The notes beneath the pieces are model-generated. The model did no database searches. It worked only from the letters and a program-made list of their open reading frames with translations, and was not told where the DNA came from. Below are positions 15,251 through 16,524 of a DNA stretch of 64,000 nucleotides, piece by piece; the first letter of the stretch is position 1; each line of letters opens with the position of its first letter. The stretch lies in NCBI GenBank assembly GCA_022566535.1, contig JADFIR010000008.1:1-64000 (forward strand). Direction: 5' to 3'. The stretch is from Planctomycetota bacterium. GTDB lineage: Bacteria; Planctomycetota; Phycisphaerae; Phycisphaerales; SM1A02. Position numbers and translations under genes: made by a program.

Positions 15251-15538
15251 TCATCGAGGGTTGCCGCTGGTGTAGGTGATCGGGTAGGGGCTCAGCCGGC
15301 TGGGATGATCCGTGTACAACATCCGCCCGAGATCGTCCATCACCATCCGCCAGTTCTGATTATTGGTGACCGCAAGGTTGCGCTGGGCGTCAACAGGTCG
15401 ATCCAGTAATCCCCGCAGCTCAGGGCTCGGGTCGTACCGGATGGAATCGAAACTCACATCATCGGGGTTGCTGACCTGGCAGCCGGCCACGGCAGCGATC
15501 ATCAGTCCCGCAAGAAACAGTCGTGTAAAGACCCTCAT
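15251..15538 (-). CDS. Small lipoprotein
   Basis: 95 residues from the ATG at 15538; an in-frame ATG at 15553 is also possible. The signal peptide is RVFTRLFLAGLMIAAVAGC with the lipobox cysteine at its end. The mature 75 residues contain NQNWRMVMDDLGRMLYTDHPSRLSPYP, a pattern I associate with tiny conserved planctomycete lipoproteins, but no function is known. It is not clearly co-transcribed with rpsA, which lies about 260 bases downstream. Confidence 0.7.
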   Translation of the reverse strand: MRVFTRLFLAGLMIAAVAGCQVSNPDDVSFDSIRYDPSPELRGLLDRPVDAQRNLAVTNNQNWRMVMDDLGRMLYTDHPSRLSPYPITYTSGNPR

Positions 15539-15667
15539 GGAATAATGCCTCATTTGCCAGCGGTTCGTAAGCGTTGACGGATTGGAATCTACTTTGCCCC
15601 ATTATTCGTGTCAATGCAATGAAAAGATTCAATGGAGCGGAAAATTCCTCTCGGAGCAGAAAAAACC

Positions 15668-15696
15668 TCGACCGGTGAAGCAAGATACGTTACACT
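15668..15696 (+). promoter_or_regulatory. Candidate sigma70 promoter of the rod-like RNA
   Basis: TCGACC (15668-15673) and TACACT (15691-15696) are separated by exactly 17 bases, each matching 4 of 6 consensus positions. The expected start lies at about 15702, which is where the 18-bp closing stem of the downstream structure begins. Confidence 0.45.
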
Positions 15697-15700
15697 GGAG

Positions 15701-15932
15701 GTGACGGCGTTGAGCCCCCTCGGGATCGCTTTTTGTCGCGGGCAGTTTTGCTCGAGCCTAATCAATCCCAAGGGATCGCCGATCTGCGACGAAGGTCAAG
15801 CCTCCATCGAGTGGAAGACCGGGCTCGACAGACGGCGAGCCCCCCTAGCCTTGGGGTTCGAGCAAAACCCGTGCAGCGGGATGTTGCCATCCCTCTGGGC
15901 GACCCGAAGGGGCCCAGCGCCGTCGTGGTTTT
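15701..15932 (+). ncRNA. Structured rod-like RNA, candidate 6S RNA
   Basis: About 230 nt without an ORF that fold into one long rod. A closing stem pairs 15701-15718 with 15909-15926 (one mismatch). Inside it, 15721-15729 pairs with 15899-15906. An open middle follows, with a hairpin on its 3' side (15878-15883 with 15888-15893). A perfect 14-bp stem pairs 15745-15758 with 15855-15868. Further helices continue (15768-15773/15849-15854, 15776-15781/15833-15838, 15783-15786/15829-15832) to an apical hairpin at 15803-15815. Several G-U pairs would be A-C mismatches on the other strand, favouring plus. Closing stem, open middle with 3' hairpin and long apical arm are the plan of 6S RNA, which binds sigma70 RNA polymerase. 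Existence as a structured RNA is better supported than the 6S identity. Confidence 0.55.
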
Positions 15933-15978
15933 CTCGTTGGGGAATTGATCGTTTGGTGACTGGGGTCGCGCCTGCACA

Positions 15979-16524
15979 TCATTCGCTACCTCGGCTCTTC
16001 AGCATCTGCTCCAGCGTCGTGCGAAACTGTCCGGCCATCACCTCCAGAGATTCAGGCATGACCCGGATCTGGCCGACGACGCTGATAAAGTTTGTATCGC
16101 CATGCCATCTGGGCACGAGGTGGGCGTGGAGGTGTTCGGGCACGCCGGCGCCCGCCGCCCGGCCTTGGTTGATCCCCATGTTGATCCCCTGCGGGTGCAA
16201 CGTTCGTTGGAGCAAATCCGTGCCCAGCTCCAGGAGCTTCCAGAGCTCCGCCCGTTGATCGGGTTCATAGTCCAACAGGGTCGGACGCGGATCGCCCAAG
16301 GACATCAGGAGATGCCCACTCGCGTAGGGGTAGCGGTTCAGCAGGATCAGACCGTGCTCGTTGCGGTAGATCACATGGTTCGCGTCATCGTCCTGAGGGT
16401 TCTGCCAGTAATCAGTCAGGAAAGGCCCGGCGACAAGCTCGGGTTCCCCCAGCGCATCGGCCCTGCGCTGAAGCTCGCGCAGATACGCCATTCGCCATGG
16501 CGCCCAAAGATTCTCGATGTTCAT
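15979..16524 (-). CDS. HIT family protein (Ap4A phosphorylase-like)
   Basis: 181 residues, soluble. The histidine-triad motif HLHAHLVPRW is near residue 132, preceded by NQGRAAGAGVPEHLHAH, the arrangement seen in bacterial HIT proteins that hydrolyse or phosphorolyse dinucleoside polyphosphates. The N-terminus (MNIENLWAPWRMAYL) matches the HIT/APA2-like branch that begins with LWAPWR. Likely substrates are Ap4A or aminoacyl-adenylate by-products. It sits alone on the minus strand, between the rod-like RNA and gnd. Confidence 0.9.
   Translation of the reverse strand: MNIENLWAPWRMAYLRELQRRADALGEPELVAGPFLTDYWQNPQDDDANHVIYRNEHGLILLNRYPYASGHLLMSLGDPRPTLLDYEPDQRAELWKLLELGTDLLQRTLHPQGINMGINQGRAAGAGVPEHLHAHLVPRWHGDTNFISVVGQIRVMPESLEVMAGQFRTTLEQMLKSRGSE

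Follow-up and report, generated by a model that had tools for sequence, protein, structure and literature searches.

A divergent, probable 6S RNA of Phycisphaerales planctomycetes with a candidate strand-exchange switch

Results

A strongly folding gene gap is preceded by a promoter

The window analysed here is a stretch of 64,000 nucleotides of planctomycete DNA, in which a small lipoprotein gene without a Pfam match (15251..15553, minus strand) and a HIT-domain gene (15979..16524, minus strand; PF01230) flank a gap of strongly folding sequence. The lipoprotein gene is the divergent upstream neighbour and the HIT-domain gene the convergent downstream neighbour of a 6S RNA gene of ~223 nt that we place at 15703..15925 on the plus strand, based on its fold (z -7.2), the R1/R2 models and RF00013 matches on its orthologues. 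6S RNA is the small RNA by which bacteria switch RNA polymerase off and on again. A sequence-only reading of this DNA had proposed an independently promoted candidate 6S RNA in the gap, and this proposal is supported by the RF00013 matches on orthologues, by promoter enrichment and by covariation.

The putative promoter spans 15668..15696 (+) and comprises a -35-like TCGACC (15668-15673), a 17-bp spacer and a -10-like TACACT (15691-15696) that sits 6 nt before the stem base, in agreement with the earlier description of a 17-bp-spaced promoter at this point. We inferred the start of the RNA, 15703, as the position 6 nt past the -10 box. We took the best sigma-70-type score within 100 nt upstream of the core at each of 72 orthologous loci; its median was 6.6 bits, as compared with 2.4 bits in control stretches of the same loci (n=564; p ~7e-21), and many relatives carry a perfect TATAAT in their upstream stretch. 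This enrichment points to independent transcription, as in 6S RNAs.

Folding of the plus strand yielded -128.5 kcal/mol for 15690-15940 (z -5.3 against shuffles) and -126.4 kcal/mol for 15702-15926, the latter compared with a mean of -89.9 for shuffled sequences (z -7.2). None of 200 shuffles equalled it, which is the opposite of the fold no more stable than shuffled sequence that the sequence-only reading had named as grounds for giving up its proposal. As the fold of the minus strand is just as stable (-130.2 kcal/mol), energy gives no strand, and the earlier view that the G-U pairs of the fold favour the plus strand finds no backing in it. The strand was instead assigned from the position of the promoter and the orientation of the 6S model matches, both of which indicate the plus strand.

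The RNA has the parts of a 6S rod

The closing stem, 3'-side hairpin, 14-bp stem with G-U pairs and long apical arm that had been read from the sequence are all present in the fold. The proposed 6S plan holds as a fold, but its parts had been assigned one level too low, with the true central bubble situated within helix P2. All coordinates below refer to the plus strand.

The 5' strand of the closing stem (15703..15730) pairs with its 3' strand (15898..15924) over ~25 bp in four runs, which makes this stem longer than the closing stem of Rfam 6S; the RNA as a whole is ~40 nt longer than the Rfam consensus. The stem is followed by GUGGUUUUCUC, a possible terminator U-run, and terminator-like hairpins and U-runs also lie right after the closing stem in several relatives (e.g. 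loci L056, L022, L027 and L028). Above the stem, folding places a lower internal loop with a 5' side at 15731..15745, a short inner helix (15737-15742 / 15868-15873) and a 3'-side hairpin at 15874..15897 that is variable amongst relatives. The 5' side of this loop is the "open middle" of the sequence-only reading, and the same lower internal loop is what it took for the "central bubble with 3' hairpin"; 6S alignments put this loop between the closing stem and P2.

The 14-bp stem is the downstream helix P2, whose Rfam form CUGAGCC/GGUUCAAG corresponds to GCUCGAGCC/GGUUCGAGC of the window RNA in these alignments. Its 5' strand, UUUUGCUCGAGCCU (15746..15759), equates with Rfam CUGAGCC in the orthologue alignments, and its 3' strand, GGGUUCGAGCAAAA (15854..15867), is defined by folding. 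We predict that the template of the product RNA (pRNA) consists of the 5' strand of P2 and the beginning of the 5' bubble. The 5' side of the true bubble, AAUCAAUCCCAA (15760..15771), is delimited by orthologue alignments, covariation and masking, and contains the 5' strand of a second, competing helix, the collapse helix (15764-15771). The 3' side, CCCUAGCCUUG (15843..15853), was located from orthologue alignments; the 3' strand of the collapse helix, UUGGGGUU (15851..15858), overlaps the 3' strand of P2. The Rfam consensus for the 3' bubble is CCCACCUggaAcag, whereas the window genus has the diverged CCCCCCUAGCC. Across the family we found GCUCGAACC/GGUUCGAGC together with CCCACCU, which is CCCCCCU in the window genus.

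The apical arm (15772..15842) comprises a GGG/CCC clamp, conserved internal loops and a tip formed by GGUCANGCCUC and GAGUGGAAGRCC. By counts on alignment A1, described below, it is the most conserved part of the RNA and its tip is nearly invariant; the apical arm is not the part expected to be most conserved in 6S RNA.

The fold is conserved by compensatory changes throughout the order

A DNA search of 61 related genomes identified the element throughout the order Phycisphaerales. The relatives differ by indels whose lengths are not in threes and by substitutions at paired bases. We analysed two alignments: A1, in which MAFFT aligned 28 core sequences without regard to structure, and A3, a larger one of 72 sequences fitted to the model. 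In A1, 35 pairs were supported, 91.8% of cells were paired and both-side changes occurred in 70 cells against 19 expected (0/500 shuffles), with pairing halved when partners were slid by one column; the covariation score was 0.283 as compared with 0.153 for shuffled alignments (0/500). In A3, both-side changes were found in 28 of the 35 pairs, and the score was 0.417 against 0.171 (again 0/500), although p-values overstate independence here because the aligned sequences are kin and share ancestry. Covariation in relatives, which had been suggested as a check, is therefore found in both alignments, and it joins the folding z of -7.2 in support of a 6S-like rod of closing stem, central bubble and apical arm.

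Conservation of the flanking genes is partial. Amongst the 71 other loci, the lipoprotein gene adjoins the RNA in 37, at ~300-650 nt, and a HIT-domain gene lies near it in 27, so that the gap between these two genes, proposed earlier as the place to collect homologues, is kept on its lipoprotein side in 37 loci and on its HIT side in 27. The lipoprotein, of ~100 aa and without a Pfam match, has been kept as a divergent 6S neighbour across families of the order.

Orthologues of the RNA match the Rfam 6S model

Rfam searches returned nothing for the window at the gathering score and no 6S RNA for the locus up to E 10; the matches obtained, mir-2774 and PYLIS_3, are chance matches. RF00013 likewise had no 6S match over the window's own genome, even at E 10. 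The cmsearch that the sequence-only reading had called for at the locus was thus negative even at E 10, which we read as a limit of detection; membership of the 6S family accordingly rests on the orthologues. SRP RNA, RNase P RNA and tmRNA were considered at first and dropped once RF00013 matched the orthologues.

A bridging model, R2, was derived solely from sequences homologous to the window element. It detected the locus in 116 of 151 Phycisphaerales genomes, one copy in each with the sole exception of G487, which has two; a single gene per genome is usual for 6S RNA. In the same 151 genomes RF00013 gave 47 matches, 11 of them above the gathering score and aligned end to end (model positions 1-187). 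All 47 overlap the R2 locus by >100 nt, one place in a multi-megabase genome, at 21 to 69 bits. The close relatives L006, L013 and L005 score 42.1, 38.1 and 34.5 bits with RF00013 at the same place, L006 is 81% identical to the window (query 12-188), and L005 and L006 are 81-83% identical over most of the RNA. The divergent lipoprotein gene is also found ~480 nt upstream of L061 and L064, both above the Rfam cut-off.

Outside the class, we did not accept R2 matches with E between 1e-4 and 0.05 on the strength of R2 by itself; several of them coincide with RF00013 matches (G276, G141, G302, G097, G181, G150, G138 and G343). Near-complete genomes of genus g35 in family f2 (G037, G042, G046, G050, G452 and G461) had no match to either R2 or RF00013. 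Other genera of this family have 6S matches, unlike g35, suggesting loss of 6S or strong divergence in that genus. Across the phylum, RF00013 matches 173 of 392 Planctomycetota genomes (101 above the cut-off), and 6S is therefore visible there with the current database model. The earlier remark of knowing no described 6S RNA from this group holds in so far as Rfam misses the window lineage, but not for Planctomycetota as a whole. In our literature search, 6S RNA and Phycisphaerae were mentioned together in PMC5673643 only; that paper reports that no 6S was found in Thermogutta and, for its lack in Pirellula and Rhodopirellula, refers to Wehner 2014, a screen with which the number of genomes matched here contrasts.

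Collectively, these data make it very probable that the gap element is the 6S RNA (ssrS) of a Phycisphaerales planctomycete, with its own housekeeping-type promoter and a rod mimicking an open promoter. The family itself is already known; what is new is a divergent, Rfam-invisible Phycisphaerales member of it.

The 3' strand of P2 can pair with the central bubble

Within the bubble, GAACCCCAA pairs with UUGGGGUUC, which overlaps the 3' strand of P2. The resulting collapse helix, AACCCCAA/UUGGGGUU, is 8-9 bp long and G-C rich and shares GGUU(C) with P2; in the window RNA, 8/8 pairs are possible between 15851-15858 and 15764-15771. The helix covaries on the structure-blind A1, with 13 both-side changes against 5.2 expected and 17 further pair types against 11.7, and this covariation drops by half when the helix is slid by one column. 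In L121/L131 (G141), the collapse helix of another planctomycete lineage reads CCUAAC/GUUAGG, a compensatory version of CCCCAA/UUGGGG.

Thermodynamic simulation of the free RNA gave a median pairing of 0.86 for P2 as compared with 0.03 for the collapse helix. When the 5' strand of P2 was masked, as it would be by a product RNA, the median for the collapse helix rose from 0.03 to 0.85, and it exceeded 0.5 in 49 of the 72 sequences. Under the same masking, the two bubble strands formed 6.6 bp in native sequences against 1.6 bp with the 5' bubble shuffled, with native values higher in 64 of 71 comparisons (p 1e-12, which is not to be taken literally since the sequences are related). The potential of the 3' strand of P2 to pair in this way with the distal 5' bubble, and the covariation of this pairing, are thus properties of the family, from which its use in release would follow by analogy.

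Alternatively, the same pairing might not arise through release but already be the ground state in the free RNA. Its strong covariation would fit this, and in a minority of relatives (e.g. L010, L014, L020 and L045) the free RNA already favours the collapse helix, so that the ground state might account for some of the covariation; in a few relatives with a mismatched upper P2 (GUUCC) the collapse helix dominates the free RNA. Most free RNAs, however, favour P2, the collapse helix is gained only upon masking of the P2 5' strand, and the upper P2 letters CC/GG are nearly invariant. We consider a ground-state pairing unlikely on these grounds. We lean towards a sequence-fixed strand-exchange switch in the Phycisphaerales 6S RNA, in which the 3' strand alternates between P2 and a long, G-C-rich collapse helix that is kept by compensatory changes, and towards a release design that differs between planctomycete lineages, with a collapse helix in some and an E. 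coli-like 3' hairpin in others.

A planctomycete 6S RNA outside this group, L139:1501-1679 (-), could form an E. coli-like 3'-bubble hairpin (ACCUGCGAAAGCAGGU) in place of a collapse helix, which suggests that release designs differ within the phylum. In the window RNA, no E. coli-type 9-bp hairpin is evident in CCCUAGCCUUGGGGUUC.

Discussion

6S RNA mimics an open promoter and blocks sigma-A polymerase, and is released as a copied product RNA unwinds P2 (PMC8876501). Once P2 has been unwound, E. coli 6S RNA extends a 3'-bubble hairpin, while the RNAs of B. subtilis and A. aeolicus form a "central bubble collapse helix", in which the 3' strand of P2 pairs with the distal part of the 5' bubble (PMC8876501). 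By analogy with this family, the Phycisphaerales RNA would bind polymerase, template a product RNA, be released upon its synthesis and be subject to growth-phase control. The rod would hold sigma-A polymerase in the mimicked open promoter; on resupply, polymerase would transcribe a short product RNA whose template runs from the 5' bubble into P2's 5' strand (~15746-15762). This copying would free the 3' strand of P2, so that its UUGGGGUU could re-pair with AAUCCCAA in the 5' bubble; the bubble would then collapse and the RNA be ejected. From their position relative to P2, and by comparison with the starts in E. coli and Bacillus, we take U15762 or U15759 to be the candidate starts of the product RNA.

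One rival is an RNA related to 6S whose partner, like that of Ms1 in Actinobacteria, is core RNA polymerase lacking sigma; such an RNA would share the 6S fold and differ in what it binds. Ms1 resembles 6S RNA in structure (PMC9130861), the closing arm of the window RNA is longer than that of the Rfam consensus, and its sequence gives no polymerase partner. Yet the orthologues match RF00013 end to end with the central bubble, P2 and the apical GGG/CCC clamp kept, and the conservation of a switch for pRNA release would be pointless in an RNA that holoenzyme does not transcribe, leaving an Ms1-like identity very improbable. It is hardly credible that the element is a small structured Phycisphaerales RNA unrelated to 6S and like it in outline only: the missing Rfam match in the window and its own genome and the conservation of the apical arm, contrary to 6S expectation, speak for it, but 47/47 co-located RF00013 matches of 21 to 69 bits at one locus, with synteny common to the loci, speak against it.

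Bacteria almost universally use 6S RNA as a brake on transcription. With Rfam and the bridging model together, it can be located in most genomes of the Phycisphaerales and in many further planctomycetes, among them a lineage in which the standard model fails. The alignment also offers comparative evidence for release by a collapse helix, which in Bacillus and Aquifex was earlier inferred from probing and mutants.

In comparison with known systems, the window RNA shares with RF00013 the rod with closing stem, P2 (CUGAGCC/GGUUCAAG), a CCCACCU 3' bubble in its family, the GGG/CCC clamp and the apical arm. It differs from that model in its longer closing stem, its hairpin-bearing lower loop and its diverged bubble (CCCCCCUAGCC), and the window copy falls below detection. 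Ms1 of Actinobacteria (PMC9130861) is likewise a 6S-like, rod-shaped RNA, but binds core polymerase. With E. coli 6S RNA (PMC8876501) the window RNA shares the open-promoter plan and, as predicted here, a pRNA template that extends from the 5' bubble into P2; E. coli 6S is released by an extended 3'-bubble hairpin, of which the window RNA has no evident counterpart and which L139 seems able to form. The proposed switch matches the collapse helix of B. subtilis 6S-1, which likewise joins the distal 5' bubble to the 3' strand of P2; as compared with Bacillus 6S-1, the helix described here is 8-9 bp long and G-C rich, is kept and covaries across an order and overlaps P2 by GGUUC.
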